Source: Achromobacter insuavis (GTDB taxonomy: Bacteria > Pseudomonadota > Gammaproteobacteria > Burkholderiales > Burkholderiaceae_B). Taken from it: DNA of 45,765 bases. Position numbers and translations under genes: made by a program. The notes beneath the pieces are model-generated. The model was not told where the DNA came from. It saw only the letters and a program-made list of their open reading frames with translations, and made no database searches. Where the stretch lies: positions 1 through 45,765 of the forward strand of contig NZ_CADIJR010000051.1 in assembly GCF_902859645.1 (NCBI RefSeq), in the 5' to 3' direction. Shown here piece by piece: positions 31,803-40,050 of the stretch; the stretch's first letter is position 1; each line of letters opens with the position of its first letter.

Positions 31803-33230
31803 ATGCAAGCCGCCCTACGCCCAGCCTCCGCCGACCCCGCGGCTTCCGCCGCCGAACCCTTCTTTCCGCCGCAGTTGCTGGCGCGCCTGGACAAGAACGG
31901 GCCACGCTATACCTCCTATCCCACGGCCGACCGCTATCACGGCGATTTTGGCGTCGAGCAATACCGCCAGGCCCTGCGCCAGCGCCGCGATTCCTGTACC
32001 ACCGAGCCGCTGTCGCTCTACGTGCACATCCCGTTCTGCGATTCGGTCTGCTACTACTGCGCCTGTAACAAGGTCGTGACCCGCCATCACGACCGCGCCG
32101 CCCGCTACCTGGACGCGCTGGCGCGGGAAATCGCGCTGCACGTGGCCGAGCTGGGCCCGGGCGTGCCGGTCTCGCAGCTGCATTTCGGCGGCGGCACGCC
32201 GACCTTCCTGTCCGACGAGGAACTCGACCGCCTGATGGCGGACCTGCGCGGCGCCTTCCGCTTCGAGCCCGACGCCGAAATCTCCATCGAGGTGGATCCC
32301 CGCACCGCCACGCCGCAGCGGCTGGAACGGCTGCGCAAGCTGGGCTTCAACCGGCTCAGTTTCGGGGTGCAGGATTTCGACGCCAAGGTGCAGGTGGCGG
32401 TCCATCGCGTGCAGTCTTTCGAGGACGTGCGCGACCTGATGCAAAGCGCCCGCGCGCTGGGCTACGCCTCGATCAACGTCGACCTGATCTACGGCCTGCC
32501 GCTGCAGACCACCGAATCCTTCGCCCGCACCATCGCGCAGGTCAGCGCGCTGCGGCCCGACCGCATCGCGCTCTACGCCTACGCGCACCTGCCGGAACGC
32601 TTCAAGCCGCAGCGCCGCATCAATCCGCTGGACCTGCCCGACCGCGCCACGCGCGTCGGCCTCTTGAGCGCCGCCATCGAGGGCTTCCTCAAGCAGGGCT
32701 ACACCTACATCGGCATGGACCATTTCGCGCTCAATACCGACGCCCTGGCCATCGCCAAGCAGCGCGGCGAGCTGCACCGCAATTTCCAGGGCTACAGCAC
32801 CCAGCCCGATCGCGACCTGGTGGCGCTGGGCATATCGGCCATCGGCCGCATCGGCAATACCTACAGCCAGAACGCCAAGGACCTGGACGGCTACTACGCC
32901 GCCATCGAATCCGACCGCTTTGCCACCGAGAAGGGCCTGGCGCTCAGCGCCGACGACTTGGCGCGGCGGGAGGTCATCATGGACATCATGTGCCAGGGGC
33001 GGGTGGATTTCGCCCGGGTCGAGGCGCGCCATGGCCTGCGTTTCGGCGACTACTTCGGGCCGGAGCTGTCGCAGGTGGCCAACCTGGCCGAACTCGGCCT
33101 GGTCAACCTGCGGGCCGGCGAACTGCGCGTGACCGGCCTGGGCTGGTATTTCGTCAGGGCCGTGGCCATGGCGTTCGACGGCTATCTGCGCACGGTCAGC
33201 ACCGGCGCCAGCTATTCGCGCATCATCTGA
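31803..33230 (+). CDS. hemN: Oxygen-independent coproporphyrinogen III oxidase HemN
   Basis: This radical-SAM enzyme decarboxylates coproporphyrinogen III to protoporphyrinogen IX without O2 for haem synthesis. The 475-residue protein has GPRYTSYPTADRY, YVHIPFC with the CxxxCxxC cluster (Cys79, Cys83, Cys86), HFGGGTPTFL, LSFGVQDFD and VDLIYGLPLQT, all as in true HemN rather than HemW. ATG 31803 is supported by homology; the only ribosome-site-like GAGGT abuts the ATG. The upstream Anr-type box fits anaerobic induction. Confidence 0.96.
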   Translation: MQAALRPASADPAASAAEPFFPPQLLARLDKNGPRYTSYPTADRYHGDFGVEQYRQALRQRRDSCTTEPLSLYVHIPFCDSVCYYCACNKVVTRHHDRAARYLDALAREIALHVAELGPGVPVSQLHFGGGTPTFLSDEELDRLMADLRGAFRFEPDAEISIEVDPRTATPQRLERLRKLGFNRLSFGVQDFDAKVQVAVHRVQSFEDVRDLMQSARALGYASINVDLIYGLPLQTTESFARTIAQVSALRPDRIALYAYAHLPERFKPQRRINPLDLPDRATRVGLLSAAIEGFLKQGYTYIGMDHFALNTDALAIAKQRGELHRNFQGYSTQPDRDLVALGISAIGRIGNTYSQNAKDLDGYYAAIESDRFATEKGLALSADDLARREVIMDIMCQGRVDFARVEARHGLRFGDYFGPELSQVANLAELGLVNLRAGELRVTGLGWYFVRAVAMAFDGYLRTVSTGASYSRII

Positions 33231-33253
33231 GGCGCGCGCCGCCTCGCCGTGAA

Positions 33254-33280
33254 GATGTGGCCGACCGCGTCGGCCACATC
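33254..33280. terminator. Long hairpin between convergent hemN and response-regulator genes
   Basis: GATGTGGCCGAC and GTCGGCCACATC form a perfect 12-bp stem with loop CGC. It has no strong T-run on either side but occupies the 55-bp space between two convergent genes, so it may act as a bidirectional stop. Confidence 0.6.
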
Positions 33281-33285
33281 GTTGT

Positions 33286-34020
33286 CTATTCGGCGAACTT
33301 TTCCCGCAGATACAAGGCCAGCGACAGGTCATCCGACAGCTGCAGCTTGCGCATGGCGCGGCGCTTGTGGGTGCTGACGGTCTTCTTGCTGCGCTTGAGG
33401 CGCGTGGCGATCTGCGTGACCGACATGCCCTGGCTGATGTGGCGCAGGACCTCGACCTCGGACGTCGTCAGCAGGGCGTGCGGCGGCCGTGGCGACAGCG
33501 GCCGGATCTTGCCATCCTGCACCGACAGAAACGGGTTCTTCTTGCTGAGGACGCCGTGGATCATCTCGGGCAGCAGCAGCATGCCCCATTGTTTGGCCAG
33601 GTAGCCGTTGGCGCCGGCGCGGAAGGCGGCGTACTGGGTCTCCTGGCGGTTGCCGGCCGAGAACGTGATGATCGCAAGATTGGGGTGATAGCGCCGCAGC
33701 CGGCGCAGGTAGTTGACGCCGTCCCAGGGTTCCTGGGGCAGGTAGAAGTCGACCAGGGCGATGTCGCACGGCGTGGTCGCGAGCTTGTCGAGCAGCCGGC
33801 GCGCGGAGGTCTCCTGGTGGATGACGCGAAAGCCGGGGCGGGCGTCGAGGTAGGCGCCCAGGCCCAGCGCCACCACCGGGTGATCGTCCAGGATGGCCAC
33901 CCGGATGACGGGGGGCGGGCGTGACAGCAGCAGGTGCTTGCGGGAATTGGGGCGGTCACCTGCATCGGGGGATCGCGGCTCGGACGAGACGACGGTGTCC
34001 GGCGCTGAGGGAGTATTCAT
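33286..34020 (-). CDS. Orphan NarL/RcsB-type response regulator
   Basis: The 244-residue protein has an unusual Pro/Ser-rich N-terminal tail of about 36 residues. The receiver follows (VAILDDHPVVALGLGAYL, with acidic Asp45-Asp46 and phospho-acceptor Asp91 in LVDFYLP, then FSAGNRQET and Lys in GYLAKQ), and a LuxR-type helix-turn-helix: LTTSEVEVLRHISQGMSVTQ, RSKKTVSTHKRRAMRKL. The C terminus resembles RcsB. No histidine kinase gene adjoins it, so the partner is unknown. Confidence 0.9.
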   Translation of the reverse strand: MNTPSAPDTVVSSEPRSPDAGDRPNSRKHLLLSRPPPVIRVAILDDHPVVALGLGAYLDARPGFRVIHQETSARRLLDKLATTPCDIALVDFYLPQEPWDGVNYLRRLRRYHPNLAIITFSAGNRQETQYAAFRAGANGYLAKQWGMLLLPEMIHGVLSKKNPFLSVQDGKIRPLSPRPPHALLTTSEVEVLRHISQGMSVTQIATRLKRSKKTVSTHKRRAMRKLQLSDDLSLALYLREKFAE

Positions 34021-34261
34021 CTAGGCTCCACAGAATGGAAAGGCACACATCGGTGCGGAGAGGTGGGCGCCCGAGGGCGGGGCCGCGCACACGCCGTAAC
34101 CAGTCCGAAATTCGAGTGCGAAGCTTATGGTCTTACGGCGCCATACAGACGAAAACTAAGCGAGAATCAGACAAAGCGACGCCCCGGGTGGCGTCGCGCG
34201 ACGTTAAATCGCGGCGCGCGATCGTTGTCCGCAAGGCATAAAATCGCAGGATTTCCGGGCC

Positions 34262-34276
34262 GGCCGTTGAACGGCC
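34262..34276. repeat. 15-bp palindrome upstream of rmlD
   Basis: GGCCGTTGAACGGCC is symmetric about its central G, with 7-bp arms. It lies 34 bp before the chosen rmlD start, in the 5' leader or promoter. The rest of 34021-34310 shows no gene. Confidence 0.5.
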
Positions 34277-34310
34277 CATGGCGCAGGACTGGCAAGGCGG
34301 CGGACGACGG

Positions 34311-35225
34311 ATGTCCAAGAAAATTCTGGTGATCGGCAGGGACGGGCAGCTCGGCTTCGAGCTGCGGCGCAGCCTCGCGCCGCTGGGCGTGGTGACGGCG
34401 GTCGGGCGGACCGACTGCGACCTGACCTATCCCCTGCAGATCGCGCGGCTGGTGCGGCGCGAAAAGCCCGACGTCATCGTCAACGCCGCCGCCTACACCG
34501 CGGTCGAGCGAGCGGAAGAGGACGGGGTGCGCGCCATGCGCATCAATGCCGAGGCCGCGGGCGAACTGGCCGCGCTGGCGGCCGACCGTGGCGCGCTCAT
34601 CGTCCACTATTCCTCCGACTACGTGTTCGACGGCGCCAAGGCGGGCAGCTACGACGAGCAGGACGCGCCCGCGCCGCTGAATGTCTATGGTCGCAGCAAA
34701 CTGGCCGGCGAGCAGGCGGTGCGGGCGCTGAACCCGGCCCACCTGGTATTTCGCACGTCGTGGGTCTACGGCGTGTTCGGCAACAGCTTCCTGAAGACCA
34801 TGCTGATGGCGCTGCGCCAGCCGGAAGCGCTGCGCGTGGTGAGCGACCAGCGCGGCGCGCCCACCGGCGCCGCGTATATCGCCGATGCCACCGCGCAGGT
34901 CCTGGCGCGCTATCTGGCGCGGCCGGCCGAGGCGGCGTTTCCCTTCGGCCTGTATCACCTGGCGGCCACCGGCGACGCCAGCTGGCACGAATACGCCTGC
35001 TTCATCGCGCAGCAGGCCCGGCGCGCGGGCCTGGCGGTGACGCTGACGCCGGGCGACATCCGGGCCGTGGCGTCCGACCAATACCCCACCTCGGCGCGCC
35101 GGCCCCTGAATTCACGCTTGGACAGCCGGCTGCTGGAGCGCACCTTCGGGCTGCGCGCGCCGCACTGGGAAGAGGGTGTGATGCACGCCCTGGCCGCGAT
35201 CGCCGACAGTCGCAACCTGGCCTGA
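34311..35225 (+). CDS. rmlD: dTDP-4-dehydrorhamnose reductase RmlD
   Basis: This enzyme is the last step in dTDP-L-rhamnose synthesis, for surface polysaccharide. The 304-residue short-chain reductase has the nucleotide-binding start ILVIGRDGQLGFEL, VNAAAYTAVERAEED, SSDYVFDG and the catalytic YGRSK (Tyr/Lys), then RTSWVYGVFGNSFLKTM. ATG 34311 is chosen over an in-frame ATG at 34278 since the fold starts there. rmlA, rmlB and rmlC are not in the window, so it is an orphan here. Confidence 0.93.
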   Translation: MSKKILVIGRDGQLGFELRRSLAPLGVVTAVGRTDCDLTYPLQIARLVRREKPDVIVNAAAYTAVERAEEDGVRAMRINAEAAGELAALAADRGALIVHYSSDYVFDGAKAGSYDEQDAPAPLNVYGRSKLAGEQAVRALNPAHLVFRTSWVYGVFGNSFLKTMLMALRQPEALRVVSDQRGAPTGAAYIADATAQVLARYLARPAEAAFPFGLYHLAATGDASWHEYACFIAQQARRAGLAVTLTPGDIRAVASDQYPTSARRPLNSRLDSRLLERTFGLRAPHWEEGVMHALAAIADSRNLA

Positions 35226-35325
35226 CGGGCGCCACCGTCCCGTCATTCGCCGCCCGCGGGCCGGGTTCGCTCCGTCATCCGCCCCTTTTGTAGCGTAAAT
35301 GTCACGAAATGGGCCCAAAGGGTGC

Positions 35326-35331
35326 TACAAT
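35326..35331 (+). promoter_or_regulatory. Candidate -10 of the thrS leader transcript
   Basis: TACAAT stands 75 bp before the leader-peptide ATG. No close match to a -35 hexamer is visible at 16-18 bp, so the start (near 35338) is only predicted. Confidence 0.45.
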
Positions 35332-35400
35332 CGGCAACGATAAGCACGCCATTTGTCCCGGCGCTGCGCACCGCAAGTCAATCCCGAAGGCCCGAGCACC

Positions 35401-35457
35401 ATGTTTTTCCCGCTGGCACGAACTACGACCCGGAACTTTCGCCCTATGTCGCGTTAG
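35401..35457 (+). CDS. Putative thrS leader peptide with three consecutive Thr codons
   Basis: ATG at 35401 opens an 18-codon frame, MFFPLARTTTRNFRPMSR, ending in TAG at 35455-35457. Codons 8-10 are ACT ACG ACC (35422-35430), three threonines in a row directly upstream of the threonyl-tRNA synthetase gene. A GAAGG and a closer GAG precede the ATG. Together with the following hairpins this looks like an attenuator leader peptide whose translation senses charged tRNA-Thr. The inference rests on codon content and RNA pairing, not on a known homologue. Confidence 0.72.
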   Translation: MFFPLARTTTRNFRPMSR

Positions 35458-35565
35458 TTTTTCGTGCGTCGGGTTTCACCGTGTCAGGTCAGCGGTAAGA
35501 CTCAGCAAGACAACCAAATGAACGCGGCTACCAGCCGCGTTTGTCGTTTCTGAATTTCGTTTTTT
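35448..35565 (+). promoter_or_regulatory. Transcription attenuator of thrS: antiterminator and terminator hairpins
   Basis: The terminator-like hairpin is AACGCGGCT (35521-35529), loop ACC and AGCCGCGTT (35533-35541), a perfect 9-bp stem followed by a U-rich stretch and T6 at 35560-35565. GTCGCGTT (35448-35455), the last codons of the leader peptide, can pair over 8 bp (one G-U) with AACGCGGC (35521-35528) and so destroy the terminator. A ribosome halted at the Thr codons leaves 35448-35455 free; one finishing at TAG covers it. Confidence 0.65.
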
Positions 35566-35593
35566 CTCCCAAGAACCCCAGGAAGCACTCCCG

Positions 35594-37546
35594 ATGGTAC
35601 AGATCACATTGCCCGATGGTTCGCAGCGCCAATACCCGGGGCCGGTCACGGTCGCCGAAGTGGCGCAATCGATCGGCGCGGGATTGGCCAAAGCCGCCTT
35701 GGGCGGCCGCGTGACCTTTGACGGCGCCGACTCCACGCTGGTCGACACCAGCTACCGCATCGAGGGCGACGCCCGCCTGGCCATCGTGACTGCCAAGGAC
35801 GCCGACGGCCTGGACATGATCCGCCATTCGACGGCCCACCTGCTGGCCTACGCCGTCAAGGAGCTGTTCCCGGATGCCCAGGTCACCATCGGCCCGGTGA
35901 TCGACAACGGCTTCTACTACGACTTCTCGTACAAGCGCCCGTTCACGCCCGAAGACCTGACGGCCATCGAGAAGAAGATGGCCGAGCTGGCCAAGAAGGA
36001 CGAAATCGTGACGCGCGAAGTCTGGTCGCGCGACGACGCCGTCGAGTTCTTCAAGGGCATCGGTGAAAAGTACAAGGCCGAGATCATCGCCTCGATTCCG
36101 TCGAACGAGCCGCTCAGCCTGTATCGCGAAGGCGAGTTCATCGACCTGTGCCGCGGCCCGCACGTGCCGTCCACGGGCAAGCTCAAGGTCTTCAAGCTGA
36201 TGAAGGTGGCCGGCGCCTACTGGCGCGGCGACAGCAAGAACGAGATGCTTCAGCGCATCTACGGCACGGCCTGGGCCACCAAGGAAGAACAGGAAGCCTA
36301 CCTGCACATGCTGGAAGAGGCCGAGCGCCGCGACCACCGCAAGATCGGCCGCGAACTCGACCTGTTCCACTTCCAGGACGAAGCGCCGGGCCTGATCTTC
36401 TGGCACCCCAAGGGCTGGGCCCTGTGGCAGCAGGTGGAGCAGTACATGCGCTCCGTCTACCGCGACAACGGCTACCAGGAAGTGAAGGCGCCGCAGATCC
36501 TCGACATCTCGCTCTGGAAGAAGACGGGCCACTGGGACAACTACCGTGAAAACATGTTCACGACGGAGTCCGAGAACCGCGTCTATGGCCTCAAGCCGAT
36601 GAACTGCCCGGGCCACGTGCAGATCTTCAACGCCGGCCTGCACTCGTACCGCGAGCTGCCGCTGCGCTACGGCGAATTCGGCCAGTGTCATCGCAACGAA
36701 CCGTCCGGCTCGCTGCACGGCATGATGCGCGTGCGCGGCTTCACGCAGGACGACGGCCACATCTTCTGTACCGAAGAACAGCTCCAGGACGAGTGCGCCG
36801 ACTTCACGGCCCTGCTGCAGAAGGTCTACCGCGACTTCGGCTTCACCGAAGTGCTGTACAAGGTCGCCACGCGCCCTGAAAAGCGCATCGGCTCGGACGA
36901 GGTCTGGGACACGGCCGAACAGGCCCTGATGGAAAGCCTGCGCCGCACCGGCTGCGAATTCGAGATCTCCCCGGGAGAGGGCGCGTTCTACGGCCCCAAG
37001 GTCGAATACACGCTGAAGGACGCCATCGGCCGCCACTGGCAGTGCGGCACGATCCAGGTCGACTTCTCCATGCCCGTGCGCCTGGGCGCCGAGTACGTGG
37101 ACCAGAACGACCAGCGCCGTCCGCCCGTGATGCTGCACCGCGCCATCCTGGGTTCGCTCGAGCGTTTCATCGGCATGTTGATCGAAAACCACGCCGGCGC
37201 GATGCCGCCCTGGCTGGCTCCGGTGCAGGCCGTGGTGTGCTGCATTTCCGAACCTTCGGCCGATTATGCGGCTGAAATCACGCAAAGCCTGAAAAAACAA
37301 GGCTTTAGAGTAGAGTCCGATTTGCGCGGTGAAAAAATCACTCGTAAAATTCGGGAGCACAGCCTGCAGAAGGTGCCGTACATCCTCGTCGTCGGCGACA
37401 AGGAGAAGCAAAACGGTACCGTCGCCGTACGCGGTCTGGGTGGTCTGGACCTCGGCGCCATCGCGTTCGACGACTTCGTCGCCCGCCTGTCCGAAGACGT
37501 ATCCACCCGCCGCGACGTCAATCAACCCGATGGCAGCGCTGCTTAA
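35594..37546 (+). CDS. thrS: Threonyl-tRNA synthetase
   Basis: The 650-residue class II synthetase has the N-terminal TGS domain ([20 protein letters not shown]), the second editing domain with [16 protein letters not shown], and the catalytic core. The Zn ligands are in [10 protein letters not shown] and [23 protein letters not shown]-binding [10 protein letters not shown] and [11 protein letters not shown] follow, and the C-terminal anticodon domain ends near [15 protein letters not shown] precedes ATG 35594. It charges tRNA-Thr; its leader suggests control by Thr-tRNA level. infC follows in 20 bp. Confidence 0.98.
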
Positions 37547-37566
37547 CATTTGTAGGAGCTTTCAAC

Positions 37567-38118
37567 ATCGCCACTGAAAAAGCCAATCGCATCAACGGTG
37601 AAATCCGCGTCCCCGAGGTGCGCCTGATAGGTCTGGACGGAGAACAGCTGGGCATCGTCAAGATTGCCGACGCGTTCCGTCTTTCCGAGCAAAACGACGT
37701 GGATCTGGTGGAAATCGCGCCGAACGCCGAACCGCCGGTCTGCCGTTTGATGGACTACGGTAAGTTCAAGTACCAAGAGCAGAAGCGCCAAGCCGAAGCT
37801 CGTTCGAAGCAGAAGGTCATCCAGGTCAAGGAAGTCAAATTCCGTCCGGCCACCGACGAGGGCGACTACCAGGTCAAGCTGCGCAACCTGCGCCGCTTCC
37901 TCGAGGAAGGCGACAAGGCCAAGGTGACGCTGCGGTTCCGTGGCCGTGAAATGGCCCACCAGGAACTGGGCATGCGGGTACTTGAGCGTGTGCGCGACGA
38001 TCTGCTGGAATTGGCCCAGGTCGAAGCCATGCCGAAGCTCGAAGGCCGTCAGATGGTCATGGTGCTGGCGCCCAAGAAGAAGGCTGCCCCCGCGGGCAAG
38101 CCGGAATCGGCGGCTTAA
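37567..38118 (+). CDS. infC: Translation initiation factor IF-3 with non-canonical ATC start
   Basis: IF-3 binds the 30S subunit and rejects poor start codons. The 183-residue protein has both domains: [19 protein letters not shown], the linker [15 protein letters not shown] and the C-terminal [20 protein letters not shown]. The family N terminus lies upstream of any ATG, GTG or TTG; the in-frame codon at the right place is ATC at 37567, with TAGGAGCT 7-8 nt before it. The next usual codon, GTG 37618, would remove 17 conserved residues. E. coli infC starts with AUU for self-control, so AUC here is a matching case. rpmI and rplT do not follow. Confidence 0.95.
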
Positions 38119-38128
38119 AGCTCCTGCC

Positions 38129-38150
38129 GGCCTTCCTGCCCGGGAAGGCC
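38129..38150 (+). promoter_or_regulatory. Hairpin after infC
   Basis: GGCCTTCC (38129-38136) and GGAAGGCC (38143-38150) form a perfect stem 11 bp after the infC stop. No T-run follows, so termination may be weak or Rho-assisted. Confidence 0.5.
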
Positions 38151-38236
38151 TGGCCGCTCTTCCCCGCGACCCGCCGTCCAGCCTATGTTCGGCGGGTTCG
38201 CTTATTGGGCGGCTCTGCGCTACGATGTCATAGATA

Positions 38237-38262
38237 GCCGCCTTCCCGAAAGGGAAGGCGGC
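38237..38262 (+). promoter_or_regulatory. 11-bp hairpin with GAAA tetraloop in the gshB 5' leader
   Basis: GCCGCCTTCCC and GGGAAGGCGGC flank a GAAA loop, ending 19 bp before the gshB ATG. A -10-like TACGAT at 38221-38226 would start the mRNA only a few bases before it. No T-run follows; an mRNA 5' stabiliser or a regulatory stem is likely. Confidence 0.6.
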
Positions 38263-38281
38263 GTACGTTCGGGGTGTCGCG

Positions 38282-39250
38282 ATGCATGTTTTGTTCGTTT
38301 TGGATCCCTTGCCGCTCTTGAAAGCGTACAAGGACAGTTCTGTCGCCATGATGCGCGCCCTGGTGGCGCGCGGCCATACGCTCAGCGTGGCCATGCAGGG
38401 CGATCTGTACATCGAGACCGGCACGGTCAAGGCCGTCACCACGCCCATCGAGCTGGTGGAAGGCGCGGACCTGCACGGCCATGACTGGTGGCGCGAATCG
38501 GCGTCCCGGGACCTGCCGCTGGCCGATTTCGGCGCGGTGGTGATGCGCAAAGACCCGCCTTTCGACATGGAATACGTGTATTCCACCCACCTGCTCGAGT
38601 ACGCCCAGGCGCAGGGCGCCAAGGTGTTCAACAGCGGCGCGGCGATCCGCAACCATCCCGAAAAGCTGGCCATCACCGAGATCAGCGAGTTCACCGCGCC
38701 GACGCTGGTGACGCGCAACATGGCGCGCCTGAAGGCGTTCCACGACACGCACCACGACGTCATCGTCAAGCCGCTGGACGGCATGGGCGGCACCGGCGTG
38801 TTCCGCCTGCAGCCCAAGGACCCGAACCTCAACGCCATCCTGGAAACGCTCACCGACAACGGCGCGCGCACCATCATGGCGCAGCGTTACATTCCCGAGA
38901 TCGTCAAGGGCGACAAGCGCATCCTGCTGATCGGCGGTGAACCCGTGCCGTATTCGCTGGCGCGCATCCCGCTGGCCGGCGAAACCCGTGGCAACCTGGC
39001 CGCCGGCGGCCGGGGCGTGGCGCAGCCGCTGTCGCCGCGCGACCGCGAGATCGCCGAGGCCGTGGCCCCCAAGCTGGCCGCGCGCGGCCTGCTGCTGGTC
39101 GGCCTGGACGTCATCGGCGACTACGTCACCGAAGTCAATGTCACCAGCCCCACCTGTTTCGTGGAAATCGCCGAACAGACCGGCTTCGACGTGGCCGGCA
39201 TGTTCGTGCAGGCGCTCGAGAAAGCGGTTGCCGCCGGCGCCGCGGCCTGA
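38282..39250 (+). CDS. gshB: Glutathione synthetase
   Basis: This ATP-grasp enzyme joins gamma-glutamylcysteine and glycine. The 322-residue protein has MHVLFVLDPLPLLKAYKDSS, VVMRKDPPFDMEYVYSTHLL, the ATP-binding IVKPLDGMGGTGVFRLQ and the metal/substrate segment DVIGDYVTEVNVTSPTCFVE. It is followed in 18 bp by the PTS EIIA gene. gshA, often next to gshB in related genomes, is not in the window. Confidence 0.97.
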   Translation: MHVLFVLDPLPLLKAYKDSSVAMMRALVARGHTLSVAMQGDLYIETGTVKAVTTPIELVEGADLHGHDWWRESASRDLPLADFGAVVMRKDPPFDMEYVYSTHLLEYAQAQGAKVFNSGAAIRNHPEKLAITEISEFTAPTLVTRNMARLKAFHDTHHDVIVKPLDGMGGTGVFRLQPKDPNLNAILETLTDNGARTIMAQRYIPEIVKGDKRILLIGGEPVPYSLARIPLAGETRGNLAAGGRGVAQPLSPRDREIAEAVAPKLAARGLLLVGLDVIGDYVTEVNVTSPTCFVEIAEQTGFDVAGMFVQALEKAVAAGAAA

Positions 39251-39268
39251 CCTTCCTGGGACTTTGTC

Positions 39269-39670
39269 ATGACCACGGGTATCGTCATCGTCGTGCATGC
39301 GCCCCTGGGCGCCGCCATGCGCGAATGCGCCAGCCACGTCATGGGCAACCTCGACGGCATGCTGGCGATCCACGACATCCAGCCCGAGGACCGGCCGGAC
39401 GATCTGGCGCCGGCGGTGCTCAAGGACATCCTCGAGCAGGACCACGGCGGCGGCGTGCTGGTGCTGACCGATCTGATCGGCGCCACGCCCGCCAATATCT
39501 CCAAGCGGGCCGTGGCCGACGCCCAGGCGCAGGGCATCCAGTGCTGCGTGCTGGCGGGCCTGAACACGCCGATGCTGTTGCGCGCGCTGACCTACCGTAA
39601 CCTTTCGCTGGCCGAGACCCGTGAAAAGGCGCTGGCGGGCGGGGTGCAAGGGGTATTGCGGGTAGACTGA
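39269..39670 (+). CDS. PTS EIIA component, mannose family
   Basis: The 133-residue cytoplasmic phosphocarrier has active-site His10 in IVIVVHAPLG and the fold segments GVLVLTDLIGATPANISKRA and AGLNTPMLLRALTYR. No EIIB, EIIC or EIID genes follow, so it probably has a regulatory role in an incomplete PTS, receiving phosphate from the HPr encoded next. Confidence 0.93.
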   Translation: MTTGIVIVVHAPLGAAMRECASHVMGNLDGMLAIHDIQPEDRPDDLAPAVLKDILEQDHGGGVLVLTDLIGATPANISKRAVADAQAQGIQCCVLAGLNTPMLLRALTYRNLSLAETREKALAGGVQGVLRVD

Positions 39671-39780
39671 CGGACAGGAACTCGTCCGGTTATTTCGGCT
39701 AATATTTCAAGCCGACGAGCGGTTCGACAATTTGCTGCAATCACCAACTGCGGTGTGATGCCGTGGTCATAATATTCACT

Positions 39781-40050
39781 ATGCCTAATACAGACATTGT
39801 CATCAGCAATAAACTGGGTTTGCATGCGCGGGCGGCCGCCAAACTGACGCAACTGGCGAGCAAGTTCTCGAGCGAGATCTTCATCTCGCGCGGCGCGCAG
39901 CGCGTGAACGCCAAGAGCATCATGGGGGTCATGATGCTGGCCGCCGGCCTGGGCGTGACGGTCAAGCTGGAGGCCTCGGGCAGCGATGCCGAGCAGGCGC
40001 TCTCCGAAATTGAAACTCTGTTCGATAGCAAATTCGGTGAACAGGAATAG
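39781..40050 (+). CDS. ptsH: Phosphocarrier protein HPr
   Basis: The 89-residue HPr has His15 in NKLGLHARAAAKLT, phosphorylated by EI, and Ser46 in NAKSIMGVMML, the site used by HPr kinase where present. It passes phosphate from EI to EIIA. It is 110 bp after the EIIA gene and overlaps or closely adjoins ptsI. Confidence 0.96.
   Translation: MPNTDIVISNKLGLHARAAAKLTQLASKFSSEIFISRGAQRVNAKSIMGVMMLAAGLGVTVKLEASGSDAEQALSEIETLFDSKFGEQE

Follow-up and report, generated by a model that had tools for sequence, protein, structure and literature searches.

A candidate threonine-codon transcription attenuator upstream of thrS in Achromobacter insuavis and other Burkholderiales

The textbook case of thrS regulation comes from Escherichia coli, in which the threonyl-tRNA synthetase (ThrRS) binds its own mRNA and blocks its translation. 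This translational autoregulation concerns the same gene and the same need as the locus described here, but it is based on protein-mRNA binding and includes neither a leader peptide nor a terminator. Transcription attenuation of a synthetase is known from E. coli pheST, which is preceded by the pheM leader, rich in the cognate codon. There the same logic acts on a synthetase, but the amino acid and the sequence differ; the likeness to the present locus is one of arrangement, and no homology is claimed. Thr codons in a leader peptide are found in the gammaproteobacterial thrL, which lies before thrABC and follows the 1-2-3-4 logic. Both features are shared with the present locus, but thrL controls biosynthesis genes and is not among the three weak Rfam matches mentioned below.

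Leader peptides with His codons, located before hisS/hisZ in Bacilli, were proposed as attenuators of a synthetase-type gene in the available part of PMC2965389, which also names the E. coli ThrRS autoregulation in passing. The leader-peptide attenuator is common to both cases, and the differences are the Firmicutes host and the His codons. In Streptomyces lividans TK24, a thrL leader with Thr codons (MKRVRPFLETTPGFVPAR) upstream of thrS is a proposed attenuator (available part of PMC8079986). According to that text it is leaderless, contains two Thr only and leaves termination unclear, and it belongs to an actinomycete, whereas the type described here combines a run of Thr codons, an intrinsic terminator and an antiterminator and recurs in a proteobacterial order. 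No betaproteobacterial thrS leader appeared in the titles and abstract starts among the literature matches listed, subscription papers being mostly outside the coverage. The survey of aminoacyl-tRNA operon attenuators by Lopatovskaya, Seliverstov and Lyubetsky (2010, Mol Biol 44:128), cited in the available part of PMC4833913, may already list a Burkholderiales thrS attenuator. The kind of attenuator is known, and thrS as its target is little described in Betaproteobacteria.

The locus lies in a stretch of 45,765 nucleotides of A. insuavis DNA (contig NZ_CADIJR010000051.1), hereafter the window. The region 35401-35550 is best read as a classical ribosome-mediated transcription attenuator that senses tRNA-Thr charging and sets the thrS level, a reading to which we assign a probability of about 0.87 from the sequence and its relatives. 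Such attenuators are recognized by a run of cognate codons, here Thr, an intrinsic terminator, here with an imperfect tail in the window, and an excluding antiterminator, here significant only through the relatives (Table 1). Their order is that of the trp/his-type attenuators, with the stall codons preceding region 2 and the stop codon located at it. The leader codons are ATG TTT TTC CCG CTG GCA CGA ACT ACG ACC CGG AAC TTT CGC CCT ATG TCG CGT TAG. The Thr codons are separated from region 2 by 17 nt, the stop codon overlaps region 2, and 136 nt lie between the leader stop and the thrS start.

Table 1. Positions of the proposed attenuator elements and of the controlled gene in the window.
Feature	Position	Strand	Basis
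Extended -10-like promoter element TGCTACAAT	35323-35331	+	sequence; genus conservation
AAGG, weak Shine-Dalgarno-like, for the leader frame	35387-35390	+	sequence
Leader peptide frame MFFPLARTTTRNFRPMSR, 18 codons, stop TAG 35455-35457	35401-35457	+	sequence and relatives
Region 1 ACGAACUACGAC, possible partners: region 2 (35448-35454) and 35468-35477, as alternatives	35418-35429	+	pairing across relatives
Thr codons ACT ACG ACC in a row, where the ribosome is proposed to stall	35422-35430	+	sequence; Thr2 varies mainly at position 3 in relatives
Region 2 GUCGCGUU, antiterminator left arm; last leader codons and first stop base	35448-35455	+	sequence, conservation, fold
Region 2′ GUCGGGUUUC, second possible partner for region 1; 1:2′ would loop region 2 inside	35468-35477	+	pairing across relatives
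Region 3 AACGCGGCU, terminator 5′ arm; 35521-35528 also antiterminator right arm	35521-35529	+	sequence, conservation, fold
Region 4 AGCCGCGUU, terminator 3′ arm	35533-35541	+	sequence, conservation, fold
Interrupted U-rich terminator tail UGUCGUUU	35542-35549	+	sequence
AGGAAG, Shine-Dalgarno-like, of thrS; outside the helices	35580-35585	+	sequence
thrS, threonyl-tRNA synthetase, 650 aa, controlled gene	35594-37546	+	homology

The hairpin AACGCGGCT-ACC-AGCCGCGTT is a perfect stem of 9 bp, and the fold of 35521-35550 reaches -13.8 kcal/mol (z -3.7), which none of 200 shuffles equalled. The tail 3′ of the hairpin is interrupted in the window (TGTCGTTT), whereas many relatives carry TTTTTCGTTT or UUUUUCGUUU instead. 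By the rule of a consensus promoter/terminator scanner, the + strand hairpin of the window is not called a terminator; despite this, it is retained as one because of the relatives and the fold energy. The alternative helix joins GUCGCGUU with AACGCGGC (35521-35528) in 8 bp, one of them G-U, and is contained exactly in both the minimum free energy (MFE) and the centroid structure of 35440-35530, closing both. Taken in the window only, this 2:3 pairing does not exceed chance expectation (duplex p 0.285; fold z -1.14 against shuffles), and it becomes significant only because of the relatives. The first-pass annotation had described the 18-codon frame with three Thr codons in a row, the terminator-like 9-bp hairpin and the 8-bp alternative pairing. 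The sequence agrees with all three and every coordinate proved correct, with the qualifications on the U-tract and on the source of significance just given. Absent from that annotation was the possible pairing of the Thr codons with the sequence at or after the leader end (region 1:2).

From the frame and the possible helices, with their positions and their conservation, we infer that the leader is translated, that the hairpin terminates transcription and that the system responds to threonine. When charged tRNA-Thr is plentiful, the ribosome would reach the stop codon at 35455 and cover region 2, so that the 3:4 hairpin (35521-35541) would terminate transcription before thrS. A shortage of charged tRNA-Thr would instead stall the ribosome at 35422-35430, where it would cover region 1 and leave region 2 free. 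The footprint of a stalled ribosome extends about 15 nt ahead, and an A site placed on the Thr codons would leave 35448-35455 accessible. The free region 2 would then pair with region 3 (35521-35528), the terminator would be blocked, and thrS would be transcribed. In the absence of a ribosome, region 1 may pair with region 2 or with region 2′, by which region 2 would be taken up or enclosed, and the 3:4 hairpin would again terminate. The ribosome-free step is the weakest of the scheme, because the MFE structure of 35400-35482 in the window is a fold other than 1:2 or 1:2′. Control of transcription is favoured over control of translation since the thrS Shine-Dalgarno sequence lies outside the helices.

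The surroundings of the leader were followed through the genus. A query of 35290-35640 matches 42 of 43 genus genomes (40 of 40 among those of good quality). The strong match often starts at the leader ATG or at most 12 nt before it, the stretch from the promoter-like block to the ATG diverges, and the block itself is covered by separate matches (query 14-54 and similar). Of 16 genus loci read in the correct orientation, 13 show the element TGCTACAAT, two have TGATACAAT, and one is cut off at this place. If TGCTACAAT is a -10 element, transcription would start near 35338; the consensus scanner found no sigma-70 promoter. For thrS itself, 257 of 268 family genomes contain relatives at E <= 1e-100.

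Two observations concern the genes downstream. The infC gene (37567-38118) behind thrS has no ATG start, and its frame seems to begin with ATC (37567-37569) after TAGGAG; E. coli infC also has a rare start codon, to which this start is likened. In the part of the window from 37546 to 39250, thrS-infC is followed not by rpmI-rplT but by a gene that we take, from its sequence, to be glutathione-synthetase-like. This is not an assembly break, because the DNA is colinear in another genome (G011, locus L385), with 97.5% identity over 3.3 kb.

The recurrence of the elements was assessed in 201 thrS upstream regions, composed of 80 family loci, 80 named loci, 40 further loci of the order and the window; the first three of these sets partly overlap, so that the 201 loci are not independent. 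A locus was credited with a Thr cluster if an ATG frame 6-30 codons long and lying within 230 nt contained four codons with at least three Thr among them, and an intrinsic terminator was defined as a hairpin with our own score of at least 15, under a rule that demands at least 6 T in 10 bases at the hairpin end. Thr-cluster frames are found in 97 of the 201 regions, where shuffling gives 1.4; Val, as the next residue, reaches 13, which is attributed to frames reading through tRNA-Val genes. The first-pass annotation had named conservation of the Thr run in relatives as a check of its reading, and the run is found in 62 of the 80 family loci, in 30 of the 80 named ones and in the window, but only in 4 of 40 further order loci; by the rule used, it is absent from 104 of the 201. 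Intrinsic terminators occur in 170 of the 201 regions, against 0.8 in shuffles.

Within three genera (g1, g7, g8), 49 loci were tried, one of which (L096) has no leader by the rule used, and the 48 usable sequences gave an alignment of 45 distinct ones. The invariant columns concentrate in the Arg-Thr codons and in regions 2, 3 and 4, with some in between, and R-T-T-T is retained in 43 of the 45 leaders. The other leader codons drift, both before the run (FFPLA, FCASA, LRLT, IPRPT) and after it (RNF, TTY, GNF). Much of the remaining family has shorter leaders, such as MNTTRTTTWHF, MTTTRTTTRHF and MITTRTTTSTQ. In many loci of other families the leader ATG is preceded by a conserved aaaggc..ggtt, and behind it the leader starts with M-T-P-R-T in many other Burkholderiales loci (MTPRTTTTLVFERR, MTPRTTTSTSKV). 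Some of these M-T-P-R-T leaders have an eroded Thr run (MTPRTTSEMLTGL, MTPRTFGSVHPA), and some leaders keep only one or two Thr after the Arg. Extra leader residues are whole codons, often Thr (RTTTT, TTTTTTSTST).

Among six loci (L182, L185, L191, L204, L234 and L236, including Oxalobacteraceae, Herbaspirillum and Massilia), several leaders end in ..ERR or ..KRR; the terminators begin 66-98 nt before thrS, and their arm pairs weakly or through other bases. The antiterminator in these loci may differ.

The substitution pattern points to coding of the Thr run. The codons were counted in sets A, B and C of 45, 40 and 40 sequences, the last of which, used for codon counts only, was drawn from 69 tried loci, 29 being without both leader and terminator. 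For Thr2, deviations at codon positions 1/2/3 sum to 13/8/37 (1/0/2, 4/4/15 and 8/4/20 in sets A, B and C), and for Thr3 they amount to 1/0/5, 4/7/22 and 21/12/20, with the position-3 signal gone in the worn-down set C; the choice of frame also somewhat favours both of these columns. The Arg and Thr1 columns are not taken as evidence, because the frame choice favoured R-T. Across the 45 sequences neither the Arg nor the Thr1 codon varies, position 3 included, and a constraint on the RNA should therefore act besides coding. Such near-fixed codons are expected if they also pair.

The exclusive stems are conserved as well. For the wider alignment, 53 further sequences of the family were tried, 13 were without both leader and terminator, and 31 of the 40 usable ones were aligned, nine divergent rows (L102-L106, L250-L253) being left out. 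The 2:3 helix is paired in 98.6% of cells among the 45 sequences of the three genera, compared with 34-52% when slid by 1-3 columns, and in 97.7% among the 31 other family sequences, compared with 17-61%. The 3:4 helix is paired in 100% of the 31-sequence set. Pairing of 1:2 amounts to 98.1% (45 sequences) and 86.1% (31 sequences), and that of 1:2′ to 92.3% (45 sequences); both lie far above their slid versions, without clear covariation, the counts of double changes being not clearly above shuffle controls. Because the arms are almost invariant, 2:3 shows no double-sided change within the aligned clades, and 3:4 shows none among the 31 sequences. The support within clades is thus one of conservation and not of compensation. 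Of the two expectations that the first-pass annotation had for the stems, the conservation of both exclusive helices is observed, and covariation within clades is not. Its reading as an attenuator is nevertheless supported, as Thr runs and exclusive stems recur together in relatives.

Covariation-like support comes only from the comparison between groups, where the terminator arm falls into the classes ACGCGG, GCGCGG and GTGCGG. Scored in 125 of 126 loci, the fit of spacers to their own arm exceeds that to arms of the remaining classes (18.5 versus 17.2; p 1.5e-12 by Wilcoxon test); the own arm is better in 73 of 80, 25 of 37 and 4 of 8 loci of the three classes, respectively, so that in the GTGCGG class it hardly beats swapped arms. 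The fit is to the arm class, because same-class arms of other loci fit about equally. Duplex scoring of spacers against terminator arms covered 80 of 121 loci. A test for exact hexamers is positive for ACGCGG (34 of 89 versus 4.7 shuffled) and weak for GCGCGG (8 of 45 versus 3.4) and GTGCGG (2 of 22 versus 0.5). When spacers were shuffled, in 146 of 170 loci left after the removal of similar spacers, pairing with the own arm exceeded the shuffles in the 107 loci that have an R-T leader, at a mean z of 1.49 and a Stouffer value of 15.4, and did not in the 39 that lack one (mean z -0.11); here, as with the p value above, the figures overstate independence, given the kinship of the sequences and the overlap between sets. 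Region 2 starts within about 5 nt after the leader stop in many loci of other groups; in Achromobacter and its neighbours it mostly lies within the last codons.

The invariance of CGAACU at the nucleotide level in the 45-sequence set also suits an operator that mimics tRNA-Thr and is bound by ThrRS, as in E. coli thrS, with the short frame being incidental. The E. coli precedent speaks for it, but the fixed nucleotides can be explained by 1:2 pairing, relatives preserve the Thr run at the codon level, through changes at position 3 and insertions of entire codons, the terminator is widespread upstream of thrS, and the thrS Shine-Dalgarno sequence stays outside the helices. We therefore consider such an operator very improbable. 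The poor U-tract of the window species allows a further explanation, translational or mixed control, in which the leader frame would work through re-initiation, mRNA stability or Rho and the hairpin would not serve as a terminator. Re-initiation at leader genes has been proposed for bacteria generally (available part of PMC4833913), but the distance from the leader stop to the thrS start is long for it, the hairpin and the thrS Shine-Dalgarno sequence do not overlap, and the T-rich hairpin end recurs in the 170 loci selected by our own search rule, which together make this explanation very improbable. That the hairpin is only the terminator of an upstream transcript and the Thr frame a product of chance, a view favoured by seven loci with a terminator-like hairpin 8-20 nt behind a tRNA-Val gene and no leader, can practically be dismissed given the 97 Thr-cluster frames against 1.4 expected and the co-occurrence of the antiterminator signal with the leader.

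Known RNA families were also compared with the region 33000-40000. Neither the Rfam threonine operon leader nor the T-box gave a covariance-model match up to E 1, and the three weak hits of the scan, all below gathering scores, are treated as chance. Plasmid records gave no match.

The tRNA-Val genes bear on the possible origin of the attenuator. Among the 201 loci, 51 such genes lie on the thrS strand within 500 nt upstream. They are also found upstream of thrS in 8 of 39 further Pseudomonadota loci outside the order, so the tRNA-Val neighbourhood may predate the leader. In the 35 loci that combine tRNA-Val with a terminator, the gap between them is 8-62 nt in 12, 76-184 nt in 20 and longer in three. 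None of the 12 short-gap loci has a credible leader (the Thr-cluster flag of L306 is a frame reading through the tRNA gene), and their hairpins are not all one sequence; 16 of the 20 loci with the 76-184 nt gap have an R-T frame upstream of thrS by a loose pattern. This gap pattern suggests that a tRNA terminator was taken over as an attenuator, with the direction unproven. In loci of the order such as L289, L308, L310, L314 and L317, a terminator-like hairpin stands 8-9 nt behind tRNA-Val and directly before thrS, with no leader, an arrangement from which the attenuator may have descended.

The 39 loci outside the order contain two Thr clusters and three terminators. Both clusters belong to one family (f55), in which DNA of the leader region matches, often partially, in 98 of 119 family genomes. 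The leader there has 8 codons, MSTT(T/I)A(H/Q)(R/C), and was read in 23 of 30 fetched loci (L386-L415), seven having no frame by the pattern; as far as the printed flanks show, it is followed by a GGCGC-type hairpin and a T run. Its placement before thrS was seen for L347-L349 only, about 170 nt before thrS in L348. It looks like a second, independent thrS leader, unrelated to that of Burkholderiales. A tentative scenario, less likely than its contrary, is that the betaproteobacterial thrS attenuator arose from a captured tRNA-Val terminator and that, counting f55, leader control was invented at least twice in Pseudomonadota, replacing the ThrRS operator known from E. coli.

If the attenuator reading is true, thrS would be under ribosome-based control in many Burkholderiales, and the sensing logic of an essential gene would have been exchanged within Proteobacteria. 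It would also explain the long 5′ leader of thrS in Burkholderiales, and the leader could serve as a reporter of threonyl-tRNA charging.
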